A stretch of 64,000 bases of DNA from Bacteroidales bacterium (GTDB taxonomy: Bacteria; Bacteroidota; Bacteroidia; Bacteroidales; UBA932): positions 32,053-96,052 of the forward strand of contig SUYL01000015.1 of the NCBI GenBank assembly GCA_015060445.1, read 5' to 3'. Position 1 is the first letter of the stretch; every line of letters begins with the position of its first letter. Below the pieces are notes generated by a model. The model saw only the letters and a program-made list of their open reading frames with translations, searched no databases and was not told where the DNA came from. Of the stretch, positions 29,291 to 51,852 are shown piece by piece. The translations under genes were made by a program, and so were the position numbers.

Positions 29291-29377
29291 AACTTTGATT
29301 ATTAAATGTCTGAATACTTGTTTTTTAGAGTAATTTTTTGTAACTTTAACTATACTAATAAATTAAACTGTAATATT

Positions 29378-30937: not shown

Positions 30938-30962
30938 AACGGCAGCCAAATCGGCTGCCGTT
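30938..30962. terminator. bidirectional intrinsic terminator
   Basis: aacggcagcc-aaatc-ggctgccgtt between convergent genes. Confidence 0.8.
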
Positions 30963-30994: not shown

Positions 30995-33937
30995 TCAATA
31001 TATGATATCGAAGATCTGTTTCCATGTCATCGATGGTTTTCCCCAGCCGGATGCAAATATGCGTGAATATATCCAGTATAATCTGCCCGAGCTATCTGTC
31101 TTGGTTTTCTCTGATGTTTCTAGGTTAAAGTAATCAAGGTATGTCTGTGGGGCATTGTTCCCGTTGAAGGTGAATTGTGAGCCGTCAATGTACTGATATG
31201 TCTCTCCTTTGACGAATGTCCCATTCAGCTCTTCATAGAAACCGGTATGAGAAGTTTCATAGTCCTGGCCATTATAGGTGAAAGATACTTCCATCCCGGT
31301 CACTTCCCCTCCTTGCCATTTTTTACTGTCTGGATGGGATAGCAGTTTTGCAACCACCTCATTGACGTATTTGAAGTAGTACTCCCCTGTTCCATTATCA
31401 TAGCCTTGACTCTCTCTTGTCTCACTCTTGCTTACTCCTACCAGATATAGTGTCTCATAGAGGGTAATGGTACAGGTGGCAGTTGCCGTTTTGTCATTGT
31501 CTCCTGTTACGGTTGCGGTGAGTTTATATTCGCCGTTGTCGACTGCGCCCAAAGGAACTGTAAGGATACCGGTATTGGAGACAGTCATTTCTGTAGGGTT
31601 TTTGTCCCAACTCCATGATATCTGTGCCCGAGGGGATGTCTCCACCTTGAGGTCTACCACAGTTGCACTGCCTCCCATATTTGTGTGTACCTCTACACTC
31701 TCAAGCATGGTAAGCTGAGGCTTTACAGTGGCAGATATGGTGGCGGAGACGTCACTCCTGCCGGCTATGCTGATGGTAATGGTTCCTGAAGGAGGAAGGC
31801 TGCTCTCATCTTCTGTCTCGTAAATGACCCTGTTTGCTACCCCGTCATCGGTTGGTCCTACTCCAGGAATATTAGATGTCACTGTCACACCCAATGACGC
31901 TGCCCTTGCAGGGTATATGGTGTATCCGATGTCGTGGTAAAAGTTTTTGTATAGTGTGATGTTCGTTTCTGTAGGCACTATGCGCAGCTTCTCAACTGTG
32001 ACGCTGCATGTAGTGCTTACAGATCCGAGAGTGGCGGTGATGGTGGCACTTCCTGCTGTCAGTCCTTTTACTACGACTCCGGATGCATCATAACTCAATA
32101 TCTGTACAGTAGCACCATTGGATGATGTTACAGTATAATTGGCTCCTGCTGGGACCAGTTTGCTGAATTGTAGGTGTGCAGTTTCACCATCATAGAGTGT
32201 AATGGACTTTTGCATAAACTCGATTTGCCCGGCTACGACAGTCACTTCACAGAATAGATCCCAATGCCCGGATACCTTGATTCTTGTTTTCCCTGCTCCT
32301 ACTGCGGTCACTTTACCATTGGCATCCACAGTGGCCACGGCTGTATTCTCACTTGAGAATGTAGGCGTAAGTGGTGGTTTTATGGTGTAACTGATAGTAA
32401 AGCTCTCACCTGGATAGAGCGTCTTGGCAGTAGGGCTTATGCTGAATTCCTTGCTCAGTACTGTCACGCTACATGTCGCTTTCTTGCTGGTGTCATCTGT
32501 ACTTGTAGCTGTTATGGTACATGTTCCTGTTCCTTTGGCAGTAACTTTTCCATTGGCATCAACGGTAGCAACTGCATTGTTGCTGCTGCTCCAGTTGAGT
32601 GTCTTGACAGTAGCATTGGATGGTTGTACACTGGCTGACAACTGTGCAGTCTCATCTACATACATAGACAGGGTAGTGGGATTCATGGTCACTCCTGTAA
32701 CATATATCTTGCTGTCCACAGTTATGGCTACTGAAGCCGATATATTGGTGCCGTCTGTACTTATGGCAGTTATAGTACATGAGCCATCTCCTATGGCTTT
32801 TACTACACCGTTGGCATCAACGGTAGCAACTGCGTTATTGCTGCTACTCCAGTTGAGTGACTTGTTTGCAGCGGTCAGTGGCAACACAGTTGCGGTGATT
32901 TGTTTTGTAGCACCCAGTTCTGTGAACTTGTGGGATGTGGGGCTCAAGGATATTGAAGTCACAAGGTCAACTATCTCACTGTTGTCTACTCTCCATGTTG
33001 TCTCTGATACGGCACCATCTCCAGTGAAACTTACTGTGATGTTATGTTGTGTATTTCTCACCACATCGAAATTGGATGTCATGTCTTTACCCAGAAAAAA
33101 TCGGTATACTATATCACCTCTTTTCTTGGGTGATGAGTATGTGGCATTTATCTCAACATAACTGCAAGTAGATGCATATATGTTCCCTGCTTCAAATGTC
33201 TTTTCTGTTTGGATGAGGTTCCCTGGCAATAGTGTCCCTTGTTTGTTCTCATATTGGTATAGTACCACTCCTGATGTAAGTTGTCCTGCAGTAGGGTTGG
33301 TTACCTTTTCACCATCCATAGCTCCAGTTACGGATGTTATTTTGCTGTCTTTGAAAATGTTGATGTTTTTAGGAATATTTTTCAGCTGCACACTTTTTAC
33401 GTTGATTGTTACATCCGGGTTCAGCTGGTTGTAGTCTGCCCGGACTACTATTTTACTGATGCAGCGTGTCAGTGTTATTGGTAGTGACTGATTGTTGGTC
33501 AGTGTCTGCAGTCCGCTTTTGCCGCTCATCAGTACGGCTCCCGTTCCTGATGCCATCTGTGATACCGATGAGATGCTATATACAAGGTTATCCACCTCTT
33601 GAGCCGATTTTGCAGGCAGTGGCATGCCGGCATTGGCTATTGCATATACGGTATATTTCATGTTCTTGTATATGACTGCCTCTACCTGCCCGGATGAGGT
33701 ATAGTATCCGTGTGTTACAAGGTCTCCAAGTTCATTGAGAATGTACAGGTTCACGTTCTCCACCAGGGCCTCATTTACGGCTTTGGTAGACATGCCTTCA
33801 ATGGTGTAGCACATGGTGACAGCCACACTGTCCTGCTGGCCGTATGCCTTTACCATAGGATCCTGGTCGGTGTTTTCCTTGCTGCAGGAGAGCAGTAGAT
33901 ATGCCAGAATTGTTAATAGCAGAGTTAATTTACGCAT
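30995..33937 (-). CDS. large surface lipoprotein with repeated BIG2 Ig-like domains, fimbrial-locus tip/stalk-like
   Basis: lipobox LLLSCSKEN; N-terminal Mfa-like region; repeats LNWSSSNNAVATVDANGxVxAxGxGxCTITAxSTD; DNA-level repeats near 32551 and 32812. Confidence 0.8.
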   Translation of the reverse strand: MRKLTLLLTILAYLLLSCSKENTDQDPMVKAYGQQDSVAVTMCYTIEGMSTKAVNEALVENVNLYILNELGDLVTHGYYTSSGQVEAVIYKNMKYTVYAIANAGMPLPAKSAQEVDNLVYSISSVSQMASGTGAVLMSGKSGLQTLTNNQSLPITLTRCISKIVVRADYNQLNPDVTINVKSVQLKNIPKNINIFKDSKITSVTGAMDGEKVTNPTAGQLTSGVVLYQYENKQGTLLPGNLIQTEKTFEAGNIYASTCSYVEINATYSSPKKRGDIVYRFFLGKDMTSNFDVVRNTQHNITVSFTGDGAVSETTWRVDNSEIVDLVTSISLSPTSHKFTELGATKQITATVLPLTAANKSLNWSSSNNAVATVDANGVVKAIGDGSCTITAISTDGTNISASVAITVDSKIYVTGVTMNPTTLSMYVDETAQLSASVQPSNATVKTLNWSSSNNAVATVDANGKVTAKGTGTCTITATSTDDTSKKATCSVTVLSKEFSISPTAKTLYPGESFTISYTIKPPLTPTFSSENTAVATVDANGKVTAVGAGKTRIKVSGHWDLFCEVTVVAGQIEFMQKSITLYDGETAHLQFSKLVPAGANYTVTSSNGATVQILSYDASGVVVKGLTAGSATITATLGSVSTTCSVTVEKLRIVPTETNITLYKNFYHDIGYTIYPARAASLGVTVTSNIPGVGPTDDGVANRVIYETEDESSLPPSGTITISIAGRSDVSATISATVKPQLTMLESVEVHTNMGGSATVVDLKVETSPRAQISWSWDKNPTEMTVSNTGILTVPLGAVDNGEYKLTATVTGDNDKTATATCTITLYETLYLVGVSKSETRESQGYDNGTGEYYFKYVNEVVAKLLSHPDSKKWQGGEVTGMEVSFTYNGQDYETSHTGFYEELNGTFVKGETYQYIDGSQFTFNGNNAPQTYLDYFNLETSEKTKTDSSGRLYWIYSRIFASGWGKPSMTWKQIFDIIY

Positions 33938-34164
33938 ATATTTTTTCTTTAAGTTTGAATATCTTTTTATAGTCGTCATACAGCCCCAATTCTCTCAGTG
34001 CGTATATGGAAGTGTTATTGAGGGATTTTTCATGGACTATTAAAAATAGAGCCCGGTATTATGGAATGTTTTCCGGCGGCCCCATGGAAATTCAACCGCC
34101 CCGGACTCTGAATGGCAGGATTATTTACGCTCTCCATGCCTGTATTTTGTGGTTTAGGATTAGT

Positions 34165-34998
34165 TTATATTTCTATATCAACAGGGTATGTTGATGTCCA
34201 GTTTTCAATTTTTATACTGACGAAGTTGAAAGACATGTCCATTGTTATGGTTACATCCTTCAGGTCATCACTTTGCATGTTATAGTTGGCTTTCTTAAGG
34301 AACTCTCCCAATGGGAAGTCCTCTATCTTGACAGGGGTATTATCCACTGTCCCGGTTATCTTTATCAGGAGATCCTCAATATTCTCCTGTCTCATTATGC
34401 GGAAGCGGAACAGACTGTTCCCATCTGTTGTCTCCCTATCTTCCACGCTTATGCTCATATTGCCCGGTACATGACGTCTGTCAATGTATAAACCGGCAGT
34501 AGTTCCATATACATCTATATGTATGTCATCCCCTTTCTGAGGGGTGCTGTCCATGATGAAATCCATAGTGGCGAATTCCTTGTGGAGCTTTACGGTGTCA
34601 TATATGAATTCTCCGTGGGTACTGATTTTTTCGCTTGCCTGGTAGTATAGTGAATCAGATGATACTTTCCCTTTTTTTACGATGGATGAATTTAGAGTCA
34701 TATCATCTGTAACTGTCGAGGAGGACTTTATATTGCCGAATACATAGTATCTGAGTGCATCAATCCTTGGAAGCATTACTTCATGATGTGTGCGGTATTC
34801 TGATGAGTATATTGTATCTTTCAGCAGTACTTTTCCTGTGTTCTCATCAGTGAACCATATATGCAATTGTTCAATGTCTGTATTGACCGAAGAGCAATCC
34901 AGGGAAAACCAGCTCGGACAAGCCGAGCGGTCTTCGAAGATTCCTGGAGTACAGCTGCATAATATGGTTACAAGACACATTATAGCAAATCTGTTCAT
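34165..34998 (-). CDS. FimB/Mfa2-like fimbrial anchor lipoprotein
   Basis: MNRFAIMCLVTILCSCTPGIFEDRSACPSWFSLDCSSV..LPRIDALRYYVFGNIK. Confidence 0.75.
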   Translation of the reverse strand: MNRFAIMCLVTILCSCTPGIFEDRSACPSWFSLDCSSVNTDIEQLHIWFTDENTGKVLLKDTIYSSEYRTHHEVMLPRIDALRYYVFGNIKSSSTVTDDMTLNSSIVKKGKVSSDSLYYQASEKISTHGEFIYDTVKLHKEFATMDFIMDSTPQKGDDIHIDVYGTTAGLYIDRRHVPGNMSISVEDRETTDGNSLFRFRIMRQENIEDLLIKITGTVDNTPVKIEDFPLGEFLKKANYNMQSDDLKDVTITMDMSFNFVSIKIENWTSTYPVDIEI

Positions 34999-35021
34999 GT
35001 TGCAAGATTTAGATTATCATA

Positions 35022-36095
35022 TTAGAAAATTACATTTACTGTAGGTACGGTAGCCCAATCGGCAACATTCATTGTCGCTTGCATTGTTGAATGTTCTACA
35101 GGTGTGTCAGGATCCAGTGAGCCTGGTCTTAGTATGGTAACATTGATGGTGTAAGTTGTATTACGTTTGATACCCATATGGCCTACTGATGAGTTATAGC
35201 CAAAACCCTCCCTGTTGATGCTGATAGGGTAATAGTATGTATGACCGTTAAGATCTGCCTGGATTACCAGTTTTGTGAACTTCTTGTCGGCAGATTCATT
35301 GGCCAAAAGGTTCTCATAGCAGTAGAAAGTATGTGTGGTGTTGTATCCTGAATCTGTAATGGCTGTTGCTGTCTCATCGTAGAGCATTCCTGCCATTGTA
35401 CAAGCATTGATGTCTGTAGCTACAACCTTTTTTGTATTCAGTATGGTAGGAGAGGGCTGGTCGCTGCCATCATGGTACAGTTTGTCACCTGCAGCGTTGA
35501 TCAGATACATCTTAACGTTGGTAAGGGATGAACCTGCCCATGGTGTTCCGGCAAATTGTGTCTTCACACTTGCCAGTTGAACCCTTGACACAAGTCGGCT
35601 GATGGAGAATGTAACTGATGTTGTAGTCTGAAGTACAGCTTCAAGGCTACCTGTCATTGTGAAGTCCTTGTTGTTTTCAGATTGCAATGATGCTATCTGC
35701 GCTTTGAAGTCTGCCAATGTCTTTACACCTGCCCAGTTGTCACTCTTGTGGGAATTGGCTACTGCATAGATGTGTTTTTTTCCTGTGGTTGTCTTAACCT
35801 CCAAGTTTGATAGGCTTGTCAGTTCAGCAGCAGTATACATTTTGTATGCATCCAGCATGCCGGCATCTGCGCCCTCTGCACGGAACACAAAGAATTCGAG
35901 CTTTTGAACAGTATTATCATCCGCTTGTACACCGTGTGCGCCTCCTGTCGCTTTTGATTGCACCTGGTCTTCAGGTATAATGTTTATTGAAAGAATGCTC
36001 TCCTGCATCTCGTTTGAATTGTTGGCCTTTTCGCAAGAGATAGTTGTCAAGCCCATAAGAAGGGCTGAAGCCAAAATAAAAAATGTTTTTTTCAT
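35022..36095 (-). CDS. fimbrillin family (Mfa1/FimA-like) major subunit
   Basis: MKKTFFILASALLMGLTTISCEK; QKLEFFVFRAEGADAG...HIYAVANSH...FTMTGS...ISRLVSRVQLASV. Confidence 0.82.
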   Translation of the reverse strand: MKKTFFILASALLMGLTTISCEKANNSNEMQESILSINIIPEDQVQSKATGGAHGVQADDNTVQKLEFFVFRAEGADAGMLDAYKMYTAAELTSLSNLEVKTTTGKKHIYAVANSHKSDNWAGVKTLADFKAQIASLQSENNKDFTMTGSLEAVLQTTTSVTFSISRLVSRVQLASVKTQFAGTPWAGSSLTNVKMYLINAAGDKLYHDGSDQPSPTILNTKKVVATDINACTMAGMLYDETATAITDSGYNTTHTFYCYENLLANESADKKFTKLVIQADLNGHTYYYPISINREGFGYNSSVGHMGIKRNTTYTINVTILRPGSLDPDTPVEHSTMQATMNVADWATVPTVNVIF

Positions 36096-36105
36096 GTTTT
36101 TTGTA

Positions 36106-38067
36106 TTAAATGGTGTCTAAATGTTTGTCAAGGGCATATTTCTTTATCAGTTGTGATACTTCAGGATCAAGGTTGCCTCGATGTCTCATAGAGTAGTCCT
36201 GCTCTACGCTTTGCAGGAAATGTTCTATAGCTTTTTGTTCTTTGCCTAACCGGGCATACACTACAGCAAGCATATAGTCTCTCTGAGCAGAACGGGGGAG
36301 GGTTGTCAGTACTGAGAGTGCGCTTTGATTATAGTCCATACATACGAAGGCTACGGCTGAGTTGTAGTCCATATAAGGTCTAAGAAGTTTTACGGCACTT
36401 TCATAATCCCTGTCTTCAAGGGCTTGTACACCTTGCATATATACCGAGTCAATCTCTGTGGTGTGGACTGTATCTTTGATCATGCCTTTCCTATGCAGGA
36501 AGAAGTCAAATTTTACGGTTCTCAGTTTTGCATATAACTCACTGCGTATATACTTGTAGTCTTTTGTCTGTTGAAGAGCTTTCTCCCTTTCATCAAGGTC
36601 CTCCACTTCCAGGCATTTGAGAATGCTTTCCCTGTCAATTAGTGATGTATCTTTATCAATCAGCTCCTTCAGTGTATCCCATTCTTCCGGGTGTGAATGT
36701 GTAAGTATGCCAATATCCTGGATCTCACTTTGTCTCATCTTCCCATCGCCCTCAGTGGTGAGGTCTATTACAAACATTGAATTCGCTACACTATCCCGGT
36801 AATCTTGTATGAATCGGTTGAAGTAATATTTGATGGACTGTGCTCTATTTTCAGCAAGTTTTGCGTTGGATGCAACTGTACCTTCAGGTGAGCAGCTTGC
36901 CGTAATGAGCAGTGAGTCCACTATGTAATCTTCTGCGGAGAGTACTGTGCGGATATTGTTTTTTATTCGGGCAATCTCTTTAGAGTTATTAGACAGAGTG
37001 TCATCTATATCATATCTGCCTACTTTGAATGCAATGTTTGCAGCTGTGTTGGCTTCAGCATTGCGATGAACCACTTTCTGAATATATCTTGGAGATTGGT
37101 CTGTGAATGCAGACATGGAACTGATATAGAATGTAAGAGGAGCTGTCTGAGGCATGGTATATATCCTGTCGTAACTGCCAGCTTCATATATTTCCCCTTT
37201 CAATACCATTTCTACTTTACGAAGGTTACGCCTTGTCTTGACAGGTTGCACGTAGTTGTACCGTATGGTGCCGTCAGCATTATTGATGACAGAATCCAAT
37301 CGGACGCCAACAAGTTTTATGGGATCTGTGACGTATCTGGCAAACATCTCATCCATCTTCTCCTTTTTCTTGTTGTTCTTCCTTACCAAGGAGTGCCTGG
37401 TGTAATAGTCCACAGCCTGTGCTTCAGTTACACCGAACGCAGTCCCGGTCTTCTGTCTGCTTCCTCTGAAAAATGACGACTTCTCCCTGTTTACATTCCT
37501 TTCCAGGAAAACTGTCAACAGGTGATCTTTTGTAAATGTCTTGTAGAAATCAGCGGTATCGGAGATGATTGTCTCAAGATACTTGTTATACTGAGCATAT
37601 CCTTTTTGCTGCCCCTCCCTGTATTTTGCGCCGGTGATCAGCAGTTCATCAAGGTTCAATGTGTCTTCGAGAATGCGGAACTGTGGCTGGAAACGTAGTT
37701 GCCAGTCTTCATCCTGCATTTCTTTAGGTACGATAATGTCAAATGAGATATCAACATATCCGTTCCTCTCGGCCAGATGTCTGAACTTAGCTTCTACCAC
37801 TATGGCATTGAGCTGCTCAACTGCAACCATCTCACCACTCTCTTCATCCTTGACAGCATTCATTATTATGCTTTCTCCTTTTATGTTCTGTATCTCCACC
37901 TTCGTTGTGGTATCTGCCATATATAGTTGCTGCATCTGTTGGCTGTCCTCACTCATGGCCACTGATGCCTGTAGATGCTCCTTTTTGATTTTTTTTATTT
38001 TCTGCTGTGTCGAGCAACCCATCATGATGACTGACAACAGTAGAATTGTATATGTAATTTTTCTCAT
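36106..38067 (-). CDS. fimbrial-locus outer-membrane lipoprotein with OmpA-like and TPR-like regions
   Basis: lipobox MMGCSTQ; VDSLLITASCSPEGTVASNAKLAENRAQSIKYYF OmpA-like segment; TPR-like C-terminus. Confidence 0.75.
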   Translation of the reverse strand: MRKITYTILLLSVIMMGCSTQQKIKKIKKEHLQASVAMSEDSQQMQQLYMADTTTKVEIQNIKGESIIMNAVKDEESGEMVAVEQLNAIVVEAKFRHLAERNGYVDISFDIIVPKEMQDEDWQLRFQPQFRILEDTLNLDELLITGAKYREGQQKGYAQYNKYLETIISDTADFYKTFTKDHLLTVFLERNVNREKSSFFRGSRQKTGTAFGVTEAQAVDYYTRHSLVRKNNKKKEKMDEMFARYVTDPIKLVGVRLDSVINNADGTIRYNYVQPVKTRRNLRKVEMVLKGEIYEAGSYDRIYTMPQTAPLTFYISSMSAFTDQSPRYIQKVVHRNAEANTAANIAFKVGRYDIDDTLSNNSKEIARIKNNIRTVLSAEDYIVDSLLITASCSPEGTVASNAKLAENRAQSIKYYFNRFIQDYRDSVANSMFVIDLTTEGDGKMRQSEIQDIGILTHSHPEEWDTLKELIDKDTSLIDRESILKCLEVEDLDEREKALQQTKDYKYIRSELYAKLRTVKFDFFLHRKGMIKDTVHTTEIDSVYMQGVQALEDRDYESAVKLLRPYMDYNSAVAFVCMDYNQSALSVLTTLPRSAQRDYMLAVVYARLGKEQKAIEHFLQSVEQDYSMRHRGNLDPEVSQLIKKYALDKHLDTI

Positions 38068-38090
38068 TTCTTATTAAATCAAGTGTTTTT

Positions 38091-38930
38091 TCAGGCTGTT
38101 TTGATTGACTTGTATATGTCATACAGGAATATTCTGTCTTCTTCTTTTGTTGTGTTTACGATTACCTCGAGTAGTTTGTCAGCATCTATCTTCGGAGTGA
38201 TGGATTCTGTCAGTACTTTTGTCGGGTTCTGATGTCCTGCAAAGGCACTTATAAATAGGGAAGCCTTTTTTGTGGGCTGTCTTATGCTGCTGAACAGCTT
38301 CATCACTCCATCAATGGAGAAGTATCTTTTAGGTGTGGCATTATCTGATGCTGTACTGTCTGAGAACCAGTATATATATCGTTTGAAGTGAGGCTCGCTC
38401 AGTTTTTTCCTCAGATGGCTTCCCCAGACCTCGCATGCTTTCATGATGTCCTTCACCTTGTAATATATATTGCCATTGTAATGTACTGTCATCACAGGAT
38501 GTCCGCCTATGCTTATCAGTTCCGGTGTATGATGCCCGGGCATTATGTTGCGCCCGGCAATATATCGTTGTGATTTGAAAGTGTTGTTCTCAACCTTCCC
38601 CATCAGCAGCAGCTCCTTGATGCGGTCATTGCACCAGATGTAGAAAGATGGAGATAACCATTGAGCAAATAATAATGCCAGATCTTCATTTAAAAAAGTT
38701 CCTTGTATTCTATTGCCACCTTGAATAATTTTAATTAACCCCGTTCGGGGAATTCCCCGAACGGCAGATAATGAGGTAATTAGCTCTTCGGTTTGTTGTA
38801 GGCGTAGCCAATCACTTGGTTGTTTTCCAAATGGCTTTGCCATCTGTGTAGCGTTTATCATTGTGGTTTCACCCACTTGAAATGATATGGAATTGTCGTT
38901 GTAGTTAAATATTTTCAGATTCTTTCCCAT
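38091..38930 (-). CDS. KilA-N domain-containing protein embedded in the fimbrial operon
   Basis: INATQMAKPFGKQPSDWLRLQQTEELI...GTFLNEDLALLFAQWLSPSFYIWCNDRIKELL. Confidence 0.9.
   Translation of the reverse strand: MGKNLKIFNYNDNSISFQVGETTMINATQMAKPFGKQPSDWLRLQQTEELITSLSAVRGIPRTGLIKIIQGGNRIQGTFLNEDLALLFAQWLSPSFYIWCNDRIKELLLMGKVENNTFKSQRYIAGRNIMPGHHTPELISIGGHPVMTVHYNGNIYYKVKDIMKACEVWGSHLRKKLSEPHFKRYIYWFSDSTASDNATPKRYFSIDGVMKLFSSIRQPTKKASLFISAFAGHQNPTKVLTESITPKIDADKLLEVIVNTTKEEDRIFLYDIYKSIKTA
38741..38764. repeat. 24-bp perfect palindrome inside KilA-N gene
   Basis: ccgttcggggaattccccgaacgg, encoding AVRGIPRT. Confidence 0.95.
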
Positions 38931-38933
38931 AAC

Positions 38934-39497
38934 CTAGAATAAGTATGATAGTTTTACAAGCAGTTCATTTGGGCCTACATATATCTGTTTTTGTCTGCCT
39001 TCTTCTACTCGTCCACATTTGGGACATGAGTAGGTTATATATCTGTTTGGGCCAACCATAAGTCCAAATCCGAAATCCATATTCAGGTGCTTGTTCAATA
39101 GCCAGGAATATCCTGCTCCAAGAGAGAACCCATATACCTTCCCCTCCCATGTCTTGGTCTTGATTATACCTCCCGTGTTATATTTGGTGAATTGGGCACT
39201 GGCTGATGCCCACCAACCAGTATATACATGCCATGGGTAATATCGTGTACCTGCGGCAAATGTCAACTGTCTGTTTTGCATATGCTTCTCATTCGGCTGA
39301 TTATTTCTGAAGGTCCATGGATTGTATTTGCCTTGTATATACACAGTCCAGTTTTTTGCAACGGCATATGATATGTCCATGTTAGCAGTTAAGAAATTAG
39401 CGTAAGACAGCAGATTGGTGCCTACTGCTACCTTTTGGGCATGGCCTTGATAGGCTATGGCCATTAGTGCCAAGAAAAGAAAAAATAGTTTTTTCAT
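38934..39497 (-). CDS. DUF3575 domain-containing fimbrial-locus protein
   Basis: QKVAVGTNLLSYANFLTANMDISYAVAKNWTVYIQGKYNPWTF...YYPWHVYTGWWASASAQ. Confidence 0.85.
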   Translation of the reverse strand: MKKLFFLFLALMAIAYQGHAQKVAVGTNLLSYANFLTANMDISYAVAKNWTVYIQGKYNPWTFRNNQPNEKHMQNRQLTFAAGTRYYPWHVYTGWWASASAQFTKYNTGGIIKTKTWEGKVYGFSLGAGYSWLLNKHLNMDFGFGLMVGPNRYITYSCPKCGRVEEGRQKQIYVGPNELLVKLSYLF

Positions 39498-39499
39498 AA

Positions 39500-39964
39500 T
39501 TATATTCCTTCCACTGTTATTATTTGCAGATTGTATTGTTTCCAGTCATATGTATATGTTGTCTCTTCCATTGCCTTTATAATGATGTTAGCCTCTGTGG
39601 CGTAATGGCTGTTGCTGAGATTTATACATACTTTGTTTATCCCTTTTTTTGATGGAGTGAAACCTATCTGTAGCTGTTTGTCAATGGTGGGGTTGAATGT
39701 GTAAGGTTCTACAGTGGGTGTACCATTGATAATGAGGGTGTCAGCCAAAGAATTGTTAATTCTGTATTGCAGCAGTATGTCCTCATCTGCCAGATAATTA
39801 TCTATGCTCAGCTTGAGCATCAGATGTTCATTTGTCCATGTTGTGGTATCTGCGGGCGTATACGTCGCAGTGAATGAATAGTCATTTACTGGCAATTCCT
39901 TTTGTTCGCAGGAAATTAAAACAGCTGCTGCAATTACCATATATGTAAGTATTCTTATTTTCAT
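39500..39964 (-). CDS. traQ: conjugal transfer protein TraQ (DUF3872)
   Basis: lipoprotein; last gene of tra run; ADTTTWTNEHLMLKLSID..FTPSKKGINKVCI. Confidence 0.8.
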   Translation of the reverse strand: MKIRILTYMVIAAAVLISCEQKELPVNDYSFTATYTPADTTTWTNEHLMLKLSIDNYLADEDILLQYRINNSLADTLIINGTPTVEPYTFNPTIDKQLQIGFTPSKKGINKVCINLSNSHYATEANIIIKAMEETTYTYDWKQYNLQIITVEGI

Positions 39965-40518
39965 TTTATCAGATATTTAAGTCCTATTGTTATTGTTGTG
40001 TTATGTGGTTGCATGAGGTCCGAGTGTACAAAAATCATATCCTGTATTTGTGCTGTGAACCCGAAATTCTTGGATACATATATGTCCATTCTGAAGGTGG
40101 GGACAAGGGCATATGATATCTCCTCCGTCTTCTTGAGTGTTATTCCTGAAGTAAGTTGACTGTTCCCGTTATTGCCCTGTGTATAGCCTATTGCAGCATT
40201 CGCTCCGGCATACATTATCAGTGTCCGGGTATAGTTCTGCAGCAACTTTTGACTGTATCCTCCGGATAACAAATAATTGCGTATATCAGCTCTATTGTTG
40301 CGGTATTCGCCCTTATAGCTGTTATACAGGAAACTGACATCCATAGTGCCGGTCTTTCTATAGTTATAATAGTTGAGTCCCATTGTCCATCCATTGTCGG
40401 CATTGGCATTTATGCCGTAAGTCAGTGATGCAGCGTGCTGGCCTTTGTTGCCACGTTGTGCTGATGCTCCGCTGGCCAGCAGCAGGAATAGCATGGCTGT
40501 GATTATCTTCTTTTTCAT
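39961..40518 (-). CDS. traO: conjugal transfer protein TraO
   Basis: MKKKIITAMLFLLLASGASAQRGNKGQHAASLTYG..LNYYNY; position after TraN. Confidence 0.85.
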   Translation of the reverse strand: MKKKIITAMLFLLLASGASAQRGNKGQHAASLTYGINANADNGWTMGLNYYNYRKTGTMDVSFLYNSYKGEYRNNRADIRNYLLSGGYSQKLLQNYTRTLIMYAGANAAIGYTQGNNGNSQLTSGITLKKTEEISYALVPTFRMDIYVSKNFGFTAQIQDMIFVHSDLMQPHNTTITIGLKYLIK

Positions 40519-41306
40519 TGTATTGTGTATTTTTTTGCGTTTGCAATGTCTTTGCTGTCTATTTTCAAGGAGACATTTCTATAACCATCTGTCTCATATA
40601 TGTTGACCTGTAGCTGCTTACCCTCTGATATTGTTAGCTTTTCGAACGCATAAGTGGCTGTTGTACGGTTGCCTGGAGCCACACTGAGATGACCATAACG
40701 CTCGTCTGGAACTAGGACGATGTCTTGTGCTGTACTCCTGCTTTGAGTAATGTCTGCCATTACGAATGTCACATCACAACTGTAACTTATGGAAGACTTG
40801 TTTTTGATGCCTACGGTTATATATACCTTGTTGTGGCAGGTGTATATATTGTCAATATTGAATTCAATTCTAAGTGTCTTGTCATAAATATGGTTCAATG
40901 ATGCTTTAGAACCGTTTATGGCAACTATGACAGAATTTCCTCCTGAAGGTATAGTGGCGTCTGAGGATGTAACATCATGCTTTTGACCCTCTTTTTGGCG
41001 TATTATGTATTTTTTAAGGTGAGGAGTATATCTGACTATGTATGTGGTCAGATTTTCATCCTTGGTCATGACTGTAAGAGTCGTTTCCCCTTGGAAGGGA
41101 GCTGATGCCTTGATGCGTAATAGGGAAGGTACGCTGGGTGCGGCGGCTGCAACTATAGCATTGCTACCCAGGTCGCAATATATTATGTCGGATGCACACT
41201 GCAGATGGAGGGTAGTAGTTTCGTTGACGTAAAGAGTATCCTGTCCCATTGAACTGGTGTAGGACAGTAATGTCATGACTGTTGCGATTGTCAAATTCCT
41301 GATCAT
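40515..41306 (-). CDS. traN: conjugative transposon protein TraN (DUF4138)
   Basis: YVNETTTLHLQCASDIIYCDLGS..VRYTPHLKKY. Confidence 0.85.
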   Translation of the reverse strand: MIRNLTIATVMTLLSYTSSMGQDTLYVNETTTLHLQCASDIIYCDLGSNAIVAAAAPSVPSLLRIKASAPFQGETTLTVMTKDENLTTYIVRYTPHLKKYIIRQKEGQKHDVTSSDATIPSGGNSVIVAINGSKASLNHIYDKTLRIEFNIDNIYTCHNKVYITVGIKNKSSISYSCDVTFVMADITQSRSTAQDIVLVPDERYGHLSVAPGNRTTATYAFEKLTISEGKQLQVNIYETDGYRNVSLKIDSKDIANAKKYTIQ

Positions 41307-42364
41307 TGTAAGTATATCTGGTAATCTTTTGGTAGGGTTATCACTTGTTGCTTTTCTTTGGCTGCTCGGTTGCCCATACGGCTAGTTGAACGAATTATCG
41401 TACCTGCCGTTCTGTTGGCCATACTGGCCAGCTGGCCTACCATATTGGTTGCTGCTGAAACAGCTTCATCTGTTATCTGTTCCGATGTTTCATCTACTGT
41501 ATATGCCAGTCCTTTGTATCCATCAGTGTCATATGCGGCCCAGTTGACAGGCAGGACTTTCCCATTATAGTTGATACTGGATATATACAGTTGCAACCTG
41601 TTGTCATCAATCTTTGCTATTGCATATACATACGTGTTCTTAGGCAGTATCATATTGCCTGTTCCTGTTGGGGTTTCCTGGAGTAACCGCAACTGCACCT
41701 TGTCTCCTGCACATATTTTTGTCTCGGTTGTGGTTGCTGCTTTTATTGGATTGTGTGTTGTTATACCACCTCCGACAACTGTAATGAAGCCTCCGGTTGA
41801 AGTGCCTGTTTCAGGGGCCTGTGATTGTATAGTTTCCGGCTTCTGCTCTGATTGTTGCTTGTCTGTAGACTCTTCTTTGCCGTAGAGTTTCTCAAGCAGA
41901 TAGTCATATCTCTCCTGCCATTCTTCCTTGCCGGATGTGTCAGAAATGCCTTTGCTTGTAGATGAAGGAACAGGCTTTGCTGTAACCTTTTTCTTTTTCT
42001 CATTTCTTGTACCATCAGATACCTTCTCTTGCAGCTTTGTGGTAATTCTTTCCACAGCCTGTTGTTGCTGTCGCATTGTTTCTTGGGCATTGATGACAGA
42101 TTCATCTGCAGCAGTTGTATCTGTAGCTCCAGATGATAAGTCTGCCAGATAAGCATCATAGCTTTTTACAGTGCGTCCGGATTCATATGCCTTTATTTTG
42201 GCACGTGGTATATCATTTGTGGCGGCATCGGGCAATTCTACTTTTACCGGTGTGTCTGATTCCTTGCCAGAAATTCCTGTTATAATGTGGATGAGCATTG
42301 CTGCAATGGCTATTGTAATGATGCCGAATAATGTCAGCAGTAGCATTTTCTTTTTCTTCTCCAT
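41303..42364 (-). CDS. traM: conjugative transposon protein TraM
   Basis: KVQLRLLQETPTGTGNMILPKNTYVYAIAKIDDNRLQLYISSINYNGKVLPV. Confidence 0.88.
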   Translation of the reverse strand: MEKKKKMLLLTLFGIITIAIAAMLIHIITGISGKESDTPVKVELPDAATNDIPRAKIKAYESGRTVKSYDAYLADLSSGATDTTAADESVINAQETMRQQQQAVERITTKLQEKVSDGTRNEKKKKVTAKPVPSSTSKGISDTSGKEEWQERYDYLLEKLYGKEESTDKQQSEQKPETIQSQAPETGTSTGGFITVVGGGITTHNPIKAATTTETKICAGDKVQLRLLQETPTGTGNMILPKNTYVYAIAKIDDNRLQLYISSINYNGKVLPVNWAAYDTDGYKGLAYTVDETSEQITDEAVSAATNMVGQLASMANRTAGTIIRSTSRMGNRAAKEKQQVITLPKDYQIYLQ

Positions 42365-42366
42365 TA

Positions 42367-42996
42367 TTACCTTATTTTTTCTTTTCTTGTGTCATTATTT
42401 ATTATCTCAAGCTTTTCCAGTAATAAACCATGGGGATTAGCATCACTGCGAGCTATCTCACGCACAGTACATGTGGTGATCAGGTCTTTTACAACTAATG
42501 AGTTGCTTCTGACGATATACATAGTAGCATATGTACGTGCATTGTATGGGTAAATGCTGAAATCAATTTTGATGCTGTCAACAGTCAGGGACTGGCTTAT
42601 TGAGGCATTGATTAGCCTTGAGTAGTAACCTTGCTCCTGTAGGTCATTATAATGTTCATATGCCCTCCTGTCTGCAAGATTAAGGGCTGCATTGATATTA
42701 TGTTCTATACTTTCCACATTTGGGGCAAGGGTAAAGAAGAGTTCATGGAATCGTGTAATATGGTCCTTAACTTCGATTGGTTTATTGGCCACCTTATCGC
42801 TTTGTAGAGCCAGCAGAAGACTCTTGCCCTGGTCTAGAACGTATATTTTTTCACGCTGTTTCTCCGCATATTGCAGGGCTGACACAATGGATGTTATTGC
42901 TATAATGCCACTTGACACCATAGCAGTCAGGGCTATTATTTTTATGCCCTTGAATGAATTTTCTATTCTGCTGAAAGCCTTTATTGTCTTTTCCAT
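42367..42996 (-). CDS. traK: conjugative transposon protein TraK
   Basis: KIIALTAMVSSGIIAITSIVSALQYAEKQREKIYVLDQGKSLLLALQSD. Confidence 0.88.
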   Translation of the reverse strand: MEKTIKAFSRIENSFKGIKIIALTAMVSSGIIAITSIVSALQYAEKQREKIYVLDQGKSLLLALQSDKVANKPIEVKDHITRFHELFFTLAPNVESIEHNINAALNLADRRAYEHYNDLQEQGYYSRLINASISQSLTVDSIKIDFSIYPYNARTYATMYIVRSNSLVVKDLITTCTVREIARSDANPHGLLLEKLEIINNDTRKEKIR

Positions 42997-42998
42997 AT

Positions 42999-43928
42999 TT
43001 ATCCTAAGAATCTTTTGAAGAATGCAGTTGCTGCAATTGCCCCTCTTTTTGCTCCTGCGGCACTATTTACACCGGCTTTGTTAACTGCTGCGTTGAACCC
43101 TGTACCACCGGTGCTTTCTACTACCCACTCCGCTATGGTTGGTATCTTGAACAGACCGATGACTGATACGATGCTCACGCATAGAAGGGTGAGCTGGGGA
43201 GACGTAATCGTTCTTTCTTCTTTCAATGCTGTCTCAAGTATGATATTACCGATACTTCCAGTAAGGAATATGAATATCTGTGCAAGAGGCTGCCACAACA
43301 TAATCTGGATGTATCTGGCAAACCAGCTGGTAATACCGCTGCGGAACGATGGTATGATTGCCAGGGCAAAGGTGATCGGCCCGGTAAGAGATAACAGCAT
43401 CATGTATATTATTGACAGGAAAGAAACAAACACTTGAGCCACATGTGTAAGAAGATTTACAAGCCAAATCATGATGTTCATACAGGATCTTTCTATCCAT
43501 CCGGGCATCTCGGCTCTGGATACATTACTGGCCTGGTATTTGGCATCCATATCAGCGATATCTGTATTGTCAACATCAGTTGCTTCTTCTTCATACTCAA
43601 TGGCTGCTTTTATCCTTTTGTTGAGCAATTCCCTTTCCGATTTCATGTCATCACATATGTTGCTCATCCATTTCGTTGTGGCCTGTGATATACCATCAAG
43701 CGGTGCTATTACCAGTTGTGGAAAGACACTGAGCACAAATGCTATACAGAATGGCCTTAAGGCCAGACCTAAATCAAAACCTCCTTTGATATAACTCTCA
43801 TAACACACAGTGACAATAAGGATAGTTGCTGCTATGCCGCCTATCCCGGATGCAACATACTGGAATTGTGGAAATACATCATCCAGTAGTAGTGATTTGA
43901 GGTTATATAGTTCTTGTAGAAAATCCAT
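42999..43928 (-). CDS. traJ: conjugative transposon protein TraJ
   Basis: multi-TM protein; LTGPITFALAIIPSFRSGITSWFARYIQIMLWQPLAQIFIFL. Confidence 0.88.
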   Translation of the reverse strand: MDFLQELYNLKSLLLDDVFPQFQYVASGIGGIAATILIVTVCYESYIKGGFDLGLALRPFCIAFVLSVFPQLVIAPLDGISQATTKWMSNICDDMKSERELLNKRIKAAIEYEEEATDVDNTDIADMDAKYQASNVSRAEMPGWIERSCMNIMIWLVNLLTHVAQVFVSFLSIIYMMLLSLTGPITFALAIIPSFRSGITSWFARYIQIMLWQPLAQIFIFLTGSIGNIILETALKEERTITSPQLTLLCVSIVSVIGLFKIPTIAEWVVESTGGTGFNAAVNKAGVNSAAGAKRGAIAATAFFKRFLG

Positions 43929-43934
43929 TATAAA

Positions 43935-44534
43935 TTATAATACGCTGTTTAATAGTCTGAGGTCGTTGTCAAGCTGGTTCTGATAGTATAGGTCATCCAT
44001 GAGACGGCGGCCATAATATCGGATATTGTTATAGTTGCGGCAGGCCTTGTTGTGGAGTTCGTTGACAAACTTCAACCGCTCGGCATCATTCATCTCATAT
44101 ACATTGTCAGTAATCAGATCCTCCAGCTCAATCACATACTTGGTGCTTGCGCAGAACAGTGAGTAAAGATTGGCTATATGTCTTGTCTTTTTCAAGTTGG
44201 AGAACTTGCTTTCCATGAGAACTTTGGCCAATTTGGTGTATTCATTGCCTGTCATAACAGAGTAGGATAGTATTTCCAATACCTTAGTTCCGTTGCTTAT
44301 CTTTTTCTTCACCTGTTGCATGCGGTTAACATTCTCAATGGCAATATCCAGCATGTGGCTTGTTTTCTCAACGCTCTCCAGTGCTGCAGCAAGGTTCTCT
44401 GATGAGACTCCCACTTCCTCAAGGCTGTTGGCAATGGCTGTAATCTCTCCCATTACATCATGCACTATCCACTGAGCCTTTGCATTTGTGCCAATAAAAA
44501 TATTGAGGCATATAATGATAAATACTCGTTTCAT
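43935..44534 (-). CDS. traI: conjugal transfer protein TraI (Bacteroidetes nomenclature)
   Basis: MKRVFIIICLNIFIGTNAKAQWIVHD..; start inside the ATGA overlap with TraG. Confidence 0.75.
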   Translation of the reverse strand: MKRVFIIICLNIFIGTNAKAQWIVHDVMGEITAIANSLEEVGVSSENLAAALESVEKTSHMLDIAIENVNRMQQVKKKISNGTKVLEILSYSVMTGNEYTKLAKVLMESKFSNLKKTRHIANLYSLFCASTKYVIELEDLITDNVYEMNDAERLKFVNELHNKACRNYNNIRYYGRRLMDDLYYQNQLDNDLRLLNSVL

Positions 44535-44535
44535 A

Positions 44536-46941
44536 TCAATGGTCTTGTGTAAGGTTATCAATTGCGTGTATATAACTTCCCCCACATTTTTCCACCTCAT
44601 TTTTGAGGAGGACTTGTTCACTGCGTGTAGTGGTATAAGCCCAATATGCCTGTGGGGATGTTTCTATTGCATAGACATATTTGTGTGAACCGATGCATAT
44701 GTATGCTTCTCTGTATTTATATCGGCGGTCAAGATCTTTGTTGATTGAAAAGATCAGGTTCTTGTCTTGATTATTGAGTGCCAGGATGGCTGCAATGTCA
44801 TCATATTTGTCTTTAAGAGATTTCTGGTCTAACAGAATTCGGATGGCAGAGTTGTTTATTATAGCCTGTTTTACTACAGGTGAGGATATGATGTCTTCCA
44901 CTTCTTGAGTGACAACCATGGCCTGAGCATTATGCTTTCTTGCGGTTTTCCATAGCCATTGTATCCATCCCTCCATTTCTGGTGAGGAGATTGCTTTCCA
45001 AGCCTCTTCAATAAGCATTATTTTCCGTTCCTTGACAGCCTTCATCTTGTCGGCAAATAGTTTTGTAATCAGCAATGTAATAATGGGGAACAGGACCTCA
45101 TTATTGGAGATGCTGTCGATTTCAAACAATACGAATCTTTTCGTGCTAAGGTTGATGTTTTGCTTATTGTTAAGCAATGTGCTATACTTACCTCCAAGGC
45201 AAAAAGGTTTAAGAGCTATCAGAAGATCCTTAATGGCAAAGCCACATGAGGCGATATCATCAGCTTTGGCAATTGACCATGTATCATTCAGCCAATTGCG
45301 GAAGTTATCCATGGTGCGGTCGCACCAGGTACCTTCGGACAGGTACAACTCTATAGCCTCATATAACAGTGCATCCTCTGCGGCTGAGGGAGACTTTTTC
45401 TTCCAGATACAGTATATCAGTGACAGAAGAAATGTCTTGTCTTCTTCACTAGTGACGTTCAGGAATGGGTTGAATGAAAATGGATAGTCATCAGCATTAT
45501 AGTATATGCCGTCATTACCATTTGTTTGTTCACGTATAATCTGGCACAAGGAAAAATACGAGTTGCCCTGATCAATGAGCACACAATGTGCCTGGTCCCT
45601 ATAATAGGACTGGGTAATGTACTCGTTTGTTAAAAATGATTTGCCGGATCCTGACGGCCCCAGCGTGAAAATATTATAGTTTGTAATCAGTCCTCTTTCC
45701 TGTGCGACAGTGGATAGGTCAATGGCTACTGGCACATGGGTTGTCCTGTCGGTAACATAGAATGAACCGTTTTTTATGCCTGTGGATGCTGTTTCCAAGG
45801 ATGCTAATGAGGTTGCAACCTGTAATGACTGTGTCATATATTCTTCATCTGGAAGATCTGCGCTGTTCCCTGGTATACTTGCCCAGTAGGGAACAGGGCA
45901 GTTATAGCCATTTTTACGAAGATGTATTCCATGTCTGAGGAGTGACGTGACCAAATTATTGATATCCGTACTTCCTTCCACCAATATTTGTACTGAAAAT
46001 CTTACTGTCTGCAGATTGTTTTCTGCAACCTCTTCCATATATTCGCTTATGTGTTCGTAGTGTGTCGCATTGTCTGCAGAGATACCGCTCATGGACCGCA
46101 GGAAACGGGATTTGCTTTCCAATCGTGACATGGCTTTGTTGCTGTCCACTATTTTGATATACTGGTTGACGATGTGGTTCGAGGCTATGTTATAGCCAAT
46201 TTGCGCTAGGATGCTGGAGTACATTTTGGTTGTATCAGTTGAGAGTATCCTGTCAATGACATTTTCCTCAAAACTGTTGGGCATGTCTTTCAGGGATGTG
46301 ACGGACAGGTTATATATTTCTCTGTCGGAAATTTTAACCTTGTCAGGCTGCAGCTGGATATCCTCCAGTATGTATTGCTCATTATTGCAGAAATTTATGA
46401 TTTTCCCTGATATGTCATTTATCTCATTAGGAGTAAGCTTGCGTAACTGCATTAGCCTCTTGTCAGATGTTAACATATTGACAGCCTGCTCCACGCTGTC
46501 CACAAATGTATATATGTCTGCCTGTACCTTCTGTGTAAAGATATTGCCTCTTGTTAGGATACTGCCCAATGAGGAGATATCCTGCCTGTTGCGGTGTGGC
46601 ATGGTGAACTGCAATAGTGATGTATGTTGCAGATATTGACGATGGTTGAAATGGCTGTTATAGCATTGAATCAGATATCCATCATCCTTATTGCCCATCT
46701 CGTTATGGGTAGAGAAATATATGTCCTGCTTGAGTATTATTGTCCCGACAGGCAATGTGCCAAATGCACGTATCAGCAGCTGGCGCATCTCACTATATTC
46801 ATCAGCTGAAAGGCTGTTCTTGGCTGGCAATGACATCAGATAGCATATGCATATGTCTCCGCTTTTGCCTATTATGCATTCTTCATTTACTTCCAGCACT
46901 GGGTACAGATCCTGGTATTCAACTTTCCTTATCGTCTGCAT
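44536..46941 (-). CDS. traG: TraG family conjugative transposon ATPase (VirB4-like)
   Basis: FTLGPSGSGKSFLTNEYI, IMLIEEAWKAISS, VTQEVEDI. Confidence 0.93.
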   Translation of the reverse strand: MQTIRKVEYQDLYPVLEVNEECIIGKSGDICICYLMSLPAKNSLSADEYSEMRQLLIRAFGTLPVGTIILKQDIYFSTHNEMGNKDDGYLIQCYNSHFNHRQYLQHTSLLQFTMPHRNRQDISSLGSILTRGNIFTQKVQADIYTFVDSVEQAVNMLTSDKRLMQLRKLTPNEINDISGKIINFCNNEQYILEDIQLQPDKVKISDREIYNLSVTSLKDMPNSFEENVIDRILSTDTTKMYSSILAQIGYNIASNHIVNQYIKIVDSNKAMSRLESKSRFLRSMSGISADNATHYEHISEYMEEVAENNLQTVRFSVQILVEGSTDINNLVTSLLRHGIHLRKNGYNCPVPYWASIPGNSADLPDEEYMTQSLQVATSLASLETASTGIKNGSFYVTDRTTHVPVAIDLSTVAQERGLITNYNIFTLGPSGSGKSFLTNEYITQSYYRDQAHCVLIDQGNSYFSLCQIIREQTNGNDGIYYNADDYPFSFNPFLNVTSEEDKTFLLSLIYCIWKKKSPSAAEDALLYEAIELYLSEGTWCDRTMDNFRNWLNDTWSIAKADDIASCGFAIKDLLIALKPFCLGGKYSTLLNNKQNINLSTKRFVLFEIDSISNNEVLFPIITLLITKLFADKMKAVKERKIMLIEEAWKAISSPEMEGWIQWLWKTARKHNAQAMVVTQEVEDIISSPVVKQAIINNSAIRILLDQKSLKDKYDDIAAILALNNQDKNLIFSINKDLDRRYKYREAYICIGSHKYVYAIETSPQAYWAYTTTRSEQVLLKNEVEKCGGSYIHAIDNLTQDH

Positions 46942-47198
46942 ATGTAGTAGTTCATTTTTCTTTTTGAGGCAATCTTTGTGGCAGCCTTACCTTTGGCGGA
47001 AGCAGACATTAAATACAGTACAACAGCCGTAGTGCTGCTGCATAGTATGGCAAGCATCAGAATAGCAGGTATATTTGCTGATAGGCAGATGAAAGTGATG
47101 ATAAGTGCAATCACTATCCATAATGCCAGGAAAAGAAGATATGTCCCTTCTATTCTCATCCAGCTTACTTTGGAGTCAAGGCTTTTGTTTACTTCCAT
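46929..47198 (-). CDS. traF: TraF (DUF4133-like)
   Basis: two-TM small protein between TraE and TraG. Confidence 0.8.
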   Translation of the reverse strand: MEVNKSLDSKVSWMRIEGTYLLFLALWIVIALIITFICLSANIPAILMLAILCSSTTAVVLYLMSASAKGKAATKIASKRKMNYYICRR

Positions 47199-47210
47199 AA
47201 TTGTCTTTCA

Positions 47211-47531
47211 TCAGATGTTGAACATCTGTTTTATAGCATATAGAGCAATGCAGATGAAAGCCAGAATTCCGAACCATGAAAGGGATTTTTTCCACCCCTG
47301 CCCGTGCTCATCTGTGTACAATTGATAAGCTGTTATTATTAGGCCTATCAATGCCCCAAGCCCGAATAGCGTCATGGCTATGTTCAATGCGCTGCTGTAT
47401 ATGCTGGCTAATTGTGATTCTACTTCTGTCAATCCTGATGAGATGTCGATTGTTTGTGCAGATACTGCATGTGGTGCCAGTAAAAGTATTGCGCTAATAC
47501 TGACCGCTAAGTGTCTTGAAGTTCTTTTCAT
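47211..47531 (-). CDS. traE: TraE (DUF4134-like)
   Basis: ISSGLTEVESQLASIYSSALNIAMTLFGLGALIGLI. Confidence 0.85.
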   Translation of the reverse strand: MKRTSRHLAVSISAILLLAPHAVSAQTIDISSGLTEVESQLASIYSSALNIAMTLFGLGALIGLIITAYQLYTDEHGQGWKKSLSWFGILAFICIALYAIKQMFNI

Positions 47532-47751
47532 AATCTTCTATTTCTTTTTCTGTTATTGCAAAATCCAGCGTTGACAGTTCAAGGGCTTGTGACTGTTCTT
47601 CTCCCAGTTCTTTTAGAGAATAATCTGGTTTAAGATCAGTAAAGCCATCTGTTATTTTATAGGTCACTCTTTTGATTATTGGACTGTCTGATGTTATTTT
47701 TGGAGGAGATATTCTTTGCTTCTTCCTCCAGAATCCTAAGATTTTCATCAT
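47494..47751 (-). CDS. small tra-operon protein, hypothetical
   Basis: 85-aa ORF overlapping neighbours in the run. Confidence 0.5.
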   Translation of the reverse strand: MMKILGFWRKKQRISPPKITSDSPIIKRVTYKITDGFTDLKPDYSLKELGEEQSQALELSTLDFAITEKEIEDYEKNFKTLSGQY

Positions 47752-47965
47752 AGTATGTTTTGTACCGTAATTTCAACTCAGGATCATACTCTGTGCATTT
47801 TTCAAGCAGGTATATCACGAAGGCATTCCTTGATTTGCCTAACGCTGCAGCAAGATTCTTTATTGTCAGTTCCCTGGCACGGCTTGATATCTTGTAGAAT
47901 GATCTGTTTGTTTTGAAACTGTTTTTTGATATGTCTGATTTGAAATTATATTCGCGTCTACTCAT
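47657..47965 (-). CDS. DUF3408-type / TraB-like protein
   Basis: position directly after the ParA-type TraA; basic protein with SRARELTIKNLAAALGKSRNAFVIYLLE. Confidence 0.55.
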   Translation of the reverse strand: MSRREYNFKSDISKNSFKTNRSFYKISSRARELTIKNLAAALGKSRNAFVIYLLEKCTEYDPELKLRYKTYYDENLRILEEEAKNISSKNNIRQSNNQKSDL

Positions 47966-47972
47966 ATTGGTA

Positions 47973-48683
47973 TTATTCTGAGATTATTTCTTTAAAGATT
48001 GTATCGTAGTTAAGTTTCTTGTCCAGGATGGTTTTCTCCGGATAGCATAGTGTCGATTTTATGAATATCGTGTCACTGCCGTACTCCCTTCTCATGTATG
48101 AGGTGCTTTTAACCTTATTTTTGCATACTTGTAGGCCATATTTCTGTTCTATGGTTTGGGTATGCTCTTTATATATTTCTTCTTTTTCATGGAAGAGGAC
48201 ATTGTTCCATAAGAGTCTTACACTTGGTATGTAATGCATCAGCTGGGTAGCTGCTTTTATATTGCTAACAATTACTGATGTATCCATAATTGTTGGCAGG
48301 ATGGCAAGGTCTATGAATTTAGCCTTGATAAGAGATATTGCATTGCTATCAGTTAAAGAACCAGGATAGTCAATGACAATAAAGTCAAAGATGTCTTCTT
48401 TTTTCAGCCGTATAAGGTTTTGTTTTTCTTCCTCTGTGCCTAGTTTGATTATAGGATAAATAGAGTTGTTGCCAGAAGGAAGATGGCGGTCAATCATTTC
48501 CGGTGACTTTTCGTATTCGCTGATCTCCCTTTGACGTAGGTTGAATAGGTTATAGGCAGGGGCATCGGCATCAACGCAGAGTACTTTTTTCTTCTCTTTA
48601 TTGAGCCATGATGAGAACAGTACGGCAATGGATGTTTTTCCTGTCCCCCCCTTAACGGTGAAAAATGCAATTGTTTTTGCCAT
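47973..48683 (-). CDS. traA: ParA family ATPase (TraA)
   Basis: FFTVKGGTGKTSIAVLFSSWLNKEKKKVLCVDADAPAYNLF; IVIDYPG. Confidence 0.9.
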   Translation of the reverse strand: MAKTIAFFTVKGGTGKTSIAVLFSSWLNKEKKKVLCVDADAPAYNLFNLRQREISEYEKSPEMIDRHLPSGNNSIYPIIKLGTEEEKQNLIRLKKEDIFDFIVIDYPGSLTDSNAISLIKAKFIDLAILPTIMDTSVIVSNIKAATQLMHYIPSVRLLWNNVLFHEKEEIYKEHTQTIEQKYGLQVCKNKVKSTSYMRREYGSDTIFIKSTLCYPEKTILDKKLNYDTIFKEIISE

Positions 48684-48751
48684 GGTTTAAAATTTTACAC
48701 AAAGATATAATAACAATGCGATAAAAAACAAAAAAATTAATCAAATAGATA

Positions 48752-51141: not shown

Positions 51142-51154
51142 TTCGGGGTGAAAT

Positions 51155-51558: not shown

Positions 51559-51852
51559 GAAAGGTATATAATTATATGTTATTCAATATTTTGAAATAAA
51601 ATAGGTTCTAAGCATAAAATTTTGCAATTCTAAAGCTGAACAAGGTAATCTTTAAAACTTGGGTTTTTGTCCCTTGTTGTTCTTAAACACCATATAATCA
51701 GCGAATTGTAAACGAGTGTTTCTTCAGCATACAAGTTGCTGTTATTCAGTCTTTTGTTCAAAAAACAGCTTTTTACTGAGAAATTCTAATATTTTTCTGG
51801 TTTCTACCCTGTTCCAATAAATCAATTGCAAAGGTAGGTCGTGTCACCGCAT

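Follow-up and report, generated by a model that had tools for sequence, protein, structure and literature searches.

A conjugative-transfer operon that probably runs on into the genes of a type V pilus was found in the window, a stretch of 64,000 nucleotides from contig SUYL01000015.1 of a Bacteroidales bacterium of the UBA932 lineage. The run extends on the minus strand from a parA gene to the gene of a BIG2-repeat protein (48683 down to 30995, about 17.7 kb), with all genes on one strand, and it sits on a predicted integrative conjugative element, about 45 kb long, whose integration site is the 3' end of a tRNA-Met gene. Conjugative elements of Bacteroidota disseminate genes for resistance and fitness in the gut, yet the means by which donor cells of this phylum keep hold of their recipients is, to our knowledge, not established. 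A pilus whose genes belong to the transfer operon, in arrangements that arose several times independently, would be a concrete and testable candidate for donor-recipient contact. The genome of the window is called G000 below, and G016 and G023 are genomes with a second and a third copy of the element.

The transfer (tra) part of the run ends with the gene in the traQ position (39500-39964), and the first fimbrial gene, encoding a predicted outer-membrane protein of the DUF3575 family (38934-39497; PF12099, 133 bits), starts 2 bp further on. It is followed, after 3 bp, by a KilA-N gene (38091-38930; PF04383), after 23 bp by the gene of a 653-residue TPR lipoprotein (36106-38067), the constant partner of fimA and mfa2, after 10 bp by the gene of a FimA-type major pilin, the stalk (fimA, 35022-36095; PF06321, E 7e-13), and after another 23 bp by the gene of a 277-residue Mfa2-type anchor pilin (mfa2, 34165-34998; assigned by structure match); all are on the minus strand, the larger coordinate being the start. 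The last gene encodes the 980-residue BIG2 protein (30995-33937, minus strand; four Big_2 domains, E 2e-43), a probable tip adhesin. Gaps in the fimbrial part are thus at most 23 bp everywhere except the one between mfa2 and BIG2, which measures 227 bp because the BIG2 start is taken at the lipoprotein signal (MRKLTLLLTILAYLLLSC) that begins at 33937, in an open reading frame (ORF) that opens at 33979. Pfam and NCBIfam were used to check the gene families, and ORFs and gaps were re-read on the sequence; all coordinates and gaps of the initial annotation proved correct, that of 227 bp included, and its fimbrillin, DUF3575, KilA-N and BIG2-repeat labels were each matched by Pfam. Of its 'OmpA-like lipoprotein', the lipoprotein stands and the OmpA part was not recognised by Pfam, which recognised a weak TPR alone.

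Both ends of the run carry transcription signals. A promoter of the Bacteroidota type (TTTG-N21-TATCTTTG; 48700-48732, minus strand) lies 16 bp upstream of parA, and no other full copy of the motif exists on that strand of the run, the interior count being zero; it is conserved in G023 (L045:6234) and so is common to the window and the third copy. This motif, of limited sensitivity, was used instead of a scan for sigma-70-type promoters, which is uninformative for the phylum. An intrinsic terminator with an 11-bp stem (30938-30962, minus strand) closes the run after the BIG2 gene, and its hairpin, AACGGCAGCCGATTTGGCTGCCGTT, has the same sequence in all three copies of the element. At the traQ/DUF3575 junction, where no terminator had been visible at first reading, none of sizeable length was found. 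The gaps of 2, 3, 23 and 10 bp from traQ to fimA are identical in G000 and G023, although for most genes the synonymous divergence between the two approaches saturation or could not be estimated. The ratio of non-synonymous to synonymous substitution rates (dN/dS) lies, where estimable, between 0.025 and 0.16 for tra and fimbrial genes alike (0.03 for the TPR lipoprotein), with 0.26 for KilA-N, and both groups of genes appear to be under purifying selection to about the same degree where this can be estimated. Since the junction lengths are kept, the head promoter is conserved and the tail terminator is shared, the co-transcription proposed in the initial annotation is well supported, and the tra and fimbrial genes probably form a single transcription unit.

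As judged from sequence families and structure models, the pilus subunit set is complete, with a FimA stalk, an Mfa2-type anchor and a tip pilin with immunoglobulin (Ig) repeats. The stalk protein scores 49.4 bits with PF06321 against a cut-off of 21.4 and also matches structures of Porphyromonas gingivalis FimA. The 277-residue protein gave no sequence-family match, and it was its fold that bore out the earlier name 'Mfa2-like': the AlphaFold model (predicted local distance difference test, pLDDT, 87) was matched by Foldseek to the solved P. gingivalis Mfa2 anchor 5nfi (E 6e-12, template-modelling (TM) score 0.62). Residues 36-319 of the BIG2 protein have the type V pilin fold, with the Mfa3 tip among the best matches (VIA-align Z 16.7; root-mean-square deviation 3.5 over 238 aligned residues), and are followed by Big_2 domains (Z 15.7 for the Big_2 domain, VIA-align), the structure of the last ~150 residues being unresolved. 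Foldseek on the entire protein returned Ig-repeat chains alone, at low TM, and the pilin domain was resolved by VIA-align. A cysteine lipobox can be read in the sequences of the fimA, mfa2 and BIG2 proteins, and C16 of mfa2 is invariant in 23 homologues.

A fusion unique to this element was considered and rejected, as linkage of tra and fimbrial genes recurs in other Bacteroidales. Within the genus, such tra genes, recognised by a full-length TraG match, occur in only 3 of 39 genomes (the match of G016 being divided between two contig ends), and in each of these they are fused to fimbriae. The 393 Bacteroidales genomes surveyed contain about 44 TraG loci, and a full-length lipoprotein lies within about 12 kb of TraG on the same strand in four of them (G000, G054, G338 and G343), against 0.14 expected (P ~1e-5), or in three against 0.12 expected without G000 (P ~3e-4), under a null of random placement that takes no account of how cargo clusters on mobile elements. 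G251 and G227, two weak cases, were kept out of the tra-linked count. The survey of other elements for the same fusion, which the initial annotation had called for, thus found the linkage repeatedly and in several gene orders: the fimbriae stand after traQ in the window, G016 and G023, after traN in L104 and G343 (L145-146), between traG and traI in G054 (L050) and G338 (L147), before parA/traE/traG in L139 and in the annotated Bacteroides plasmids L002 and L004, and after a coupling-protein gene in plasmid L003. Contiguous runs of tra and fimbrial genes are seen in L104, L139, L050, L147, L145-146 and the Bacteroides plasmids L002 and L004. Given these different gene orders, the fusion is not one single event, and at least six changes of tra-linkage are needed on a quick tree of 98 lipoproteins, in which a lipoprotein was scored as 'not linked' when the fetched flank held no tra gene, some of the contigs being short. 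In this tree the three lipoproteins of the window's arrangement form one clade whose nearest neighbours are those of stand-alone operons of the same genus (support 87), and the fimbrial part was therefore probably derived from a resident stand-alone operon of the genus.

The parA promoter would drive the mating-channel genes, from parA to traQ, and transcription would continue unbroken into the type V pilus operon (DUF3575 protein, TPR lipoprotein, FimA stalk, Mfa2 anchor and Ig-repeat tip), ending at one terminator. With the element induced for transfer, a donor cell would also display an element-encoded adhesive pilus that has its anchor in the outer membrane, and this pilus would promote contact with recipients or neighbouring cells. 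We infer co-transcription in the cell, pilus assembly and a role in mating from sequence. The chances that the pilus promotes contact with recipients, and so takes part in mating, may be put at about even, which makes this the best of the readings considered; such a role gains weight from the repeated linkage of tra and fimbrial genes and from the complete predicted pilus with its tip adhesin, and the recurring fusions suggest that the pilus helps donors to hold recipients. By analogy with the pilus of plasmid TP114 and the Ig-like protein of IncHI plasmids, which act in Enterobacteria and are both described below, contact with recipients would be its most economical purpose.

Several observations weigh against a mating role, beginning with the clustering of cargo that the random-placement null leaves aside. 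In the unbiased sample the majority of tra operons lack fimbrial genes, so that in general such machinery can do without the pilus. The DUF3575-lipoprotein-fimA-mfa2(-BIG2) operon is common in the same genus as a stand-alone unit without tra genes, G000 itself having another on contig C28. The pilus may therefore be colonisation or biofilm cargo that serves the host cell in adhering to surfaces or partners, wholly or partly transcribed with the tra genes and using the operon as a convenient parking site; this main rival is a real possibility, if not the favoured one. Fimbriae are known on Bacteroidales conjugative elements, and for those of pMMCAT, a conjugative element with fimbrillin genes, a role as colonisation cargo has been proposed (PMC8102008, PMC12056005), its fimbriae being linked to the greater adhesion to plastic of a strain that bears it (PMC12056005). 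However, repeated insertion inside or directly against tra operons, in several orders and without an intergenic region of its own, weighs against this reading, and cargo so placed would be expressed mainly during transfer.

The fimbrial genes might also have a promoter of their own, unrecognised in traQ or DUF3575, and then the adjacency would be meaningless and the operon end simply a tolerated insertion site. The motif used here predicts Bacteroidota promoters poorly, its exact form being absent upstream of 7 of the 10 stand-alone fimbrial operons of the genus, so that its absence at the traQ/DUF3575 junction is weak evidence, a further point against the mating role. On the other hand, the junction lengths are kept across near-saturated divergence, terminator and head promoter are shared and the linkage recurs in unrelated elements, and a separate promoter is considered unlikely. 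A surface structure for exclusion or protection rather than attraction, blocking redundant mating or masking or decoying phage receptors, is very improbable, for although element-encoded surface proteins that block redundant mating occur in other conjugative systems, a complete pilus that ends in a long tip of Ig repeats is built like an adhesin. A broader version of the mating role, in which type V pili would have been recruited as an organelle of mating contact by a considerable share of the conjugation systems of Bacteroidota, built in several times independently and with the tip adhesin setting the range of recipients, can be put forward tentatively and is rather doubtful. A pilus built into the transfer operon would moreover mean that adhesive surface structures and mobile elements spread together.

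Fimbriae on Bacteroidales conjugative elements were reportedly described by Coyne et al. in 2014 and are not new in themselves; the new point appears to be fimbrial genes within the tra operon, since a literature search, with most subscription papers and preprints beyond its reach, found no description of tra genes and fimbriae in one operon. Among the closest known arrangements are those of two Bacteroides plasmids, pBFS01_1 (NZ_CP036547) and pBuniCL06T06-1 (NZ_CP072237), in which DUF3575, TPR lipoprotein and fimbrial genes run directly into VirB4/TraG on one strand, but the fimbriae stand before the tra genes and the lipoprotein is ~31-33% identical to that of the window. Two tra/fimbrial arrangements lie on plasmids of cultured Bacteroides and are thus open to routine deletion and mating tests. 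pMMCAT and other fimbriae-bearing megaplasmids resemble the window as conjugative Bacteroidales elements carrying fimbrillin genes, but their fimbrial locus was described as possible variable cargo and not as belonging to the tra operon. Type V (FimA/Mfa1) pili of Porphyromonas and Bacteroides share the stalk, anchor and tip lipoproteins with solved folds; the window pilus differs in being fused to a conjugation operon, apparently without a promoter region of its own, in the string of Big_2 domains at its tip, and in the TPR lipoprotein and KilA-N genes of its operon. The IncI2 plasmid TP114 also encodes a pilus, of type IV, which stabilises mating pairs (PMC9045228); its pilus type and host group are unrelated and its function has been shown. 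The IncHI protein RSP, like the BIG2 protein of the window, is a large Ig-domain surface protein encoded in a tra region, is needed for conjugation in liquid and is exported by the plasmid's type IV system (PMC6764697), but it is not described as part of a pilus.

The element itself has the tra series in order, a relaxase with a coupling protein, and an integrase with att repeats, and by these features it would belong to the CTnDOT-type (TIGR03783/MPF_B) elements, with which it shares the order traE-F-G-I-J-K-M-N-O, the relaxase and coupling protein on the opposite strand, the tyrosine integrase and the chromosomal att site. It differs from them in a distant TraG (564 bits versus ~1,600 for typical members), in the operon that runs on into a type V pilus and in a Rep_3 gene with iterons. 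The left repeat, attL (25173-25220, plus strand), is 48 bp long and forms the 3' end of the tRNA-Met(CAT) gene (25146-25220); attR lies outside the window (G000:C55:1046-1093), and the 48-bp repeat is also found on G016:C29. On the plus strand are the tyrosine integrase (25699-27030; PF00589), the Rep_3 replication initiator (50014-51141; PF01051), with iterons at 51151-51576, and a block of mobA, mobB relaxase (53369-54496) and coupling protein (54493-56373) genes that spans 52993-56373 (PF03432, PF02534). A plain plasmid was rejected for the window copy, as chromosomal flanks and att repeats were found despite the Rep_3 gene and iterons.

The element pieces of G016 total 45.4 kb. Left of the tRNA-Met gene the chromosomes of G016 and the window are ~79% identical, and right of it the identity rises with a sharp edge to 98-100%; over the element, G000 and G016 are 96-99.6% identical, mostly ~99%. 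As element copies are ~99% identical and chromosomes ~79%, the element appears to have moved recently between two species, carrying the tra-fimbrial run with it. G023 has a third, diverged copy at the same site (TraG 81% identical in amino acids). An assembly chimera was rejected, the run being present in both further genomes.

Between G000 and G016 the aligned blocks from traG to mfa2 are 99.1-99.6% identical outside the tip-adhesin gene and the KilA-N segment, and these two are the most divergent parts of the run, which may be a further hint of a contact role. The BIG2 gene is more divergent than its operon neighbours, at 85-94% in the bins 31600-32000 and 33600-34200. Antirepressor-type genes (KilA-N, ORF6N, AntA) are swap points between the ~99% identical copies: the KilA-N DNA-binding segment (38636-38817) is replaced, the first ORF6N gene (27292-27600) is 72-91% identical, and the mfa2-BIG2 gap (34000-34200) holds an ORF6N-AntA gene in G016 and, in G023, a KilA-N fragment with a 666-residue ORF6N/AntA fusion. 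Inside the KilA-N coding sequence lies a perfect 22-bp palindrome, CGTTCGGGGAATTCCCCGAACG (38742-38763), also present in the second KilA-N fragment of G023 (L046:1185) and not found in the G016 copy. The Rep_3 gene and iterons (50200-51600) are 83-94% identical in G000 and G016, most of the element being ~99%, perhaps from selection for compatibility between related elements.

The tra genes, all on the minus strand, begin with a parA/traA-like ATPase gene (47973-48683; AAA_31, ParA), followed by small traB/traC-like ORFs in overlapping frames (47494-47965), which are kept in G023 and gave no match in a Pfam search. traE (47211-47531; DUF4134-like) falls below the Pfam cut-off (E 2.7e-4) and was linked by phmmer to TraE of other elements; traF (46929-47198; DUF4133) and traG, a VirB4-type ATPase (44536-46941; TIGR03783), score above theirs. 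traI (43935-44621; DUF4141-like) was recognised by phmmer to other elements, its true start likely lying inside the called ORF, giving 198 residues as in G023. Then come traJ (42999-43928; VirB6/TrbL, PF07863 and PF04610 above cut-off), traK (42367-42996; phmmer E 2e-60 to TraK of other elements), traM (41303-42364; VirB10-like, PF12508), traN (40515-41306; DUF4138, VirB9-like, PF13595) and traO (39961-40518; PF10626, 74.8 bits). The 'traQ' label was not confirmed by Pfam, with no match even at E<=1, or by profile, the similarity to true TraQ being marginal; this small lipoprotein is so named by position and size.

A TraO-family gene also precedes DUF3575-lipoprotein-fimA-mfa2 in many Cryptobacteroides-like and other uncultured Bacteroidales genomes (L070, L072, L074, L083, L084, L088, L089, L100, L125 and L129), often beside mobA/mobB and a Rep_3 gene and with no further tra gene in the vicinity. 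The presence of TraO was not accepted as evidence of tra linkage, and these loci were left out of the count, because any TraG match occurs in only 5 of the 12 genomes that have such loci and no other tra gene nearby. They may be mobilizable or decayed fimbrial elements, or TraO may be used by the fimbriae. Viral relatives, sought via TraO, were not found. Elsewhere on the element, a putative lipoprotein of 530 residues (29306-30898, plus strand) converges on the operon terminator and is conserved in G016 and G023, with no Pfam family. A helix-turn-helix gene and a HipA-like kinase gene (61044-62940, named by eye) are probably a toxin-antitoxin pair of the element, and G016 has ~4 kb more than the window near 30624-30892 (G016:C8 96872-100855; L159/L048), which also includes a HipA-like gene.

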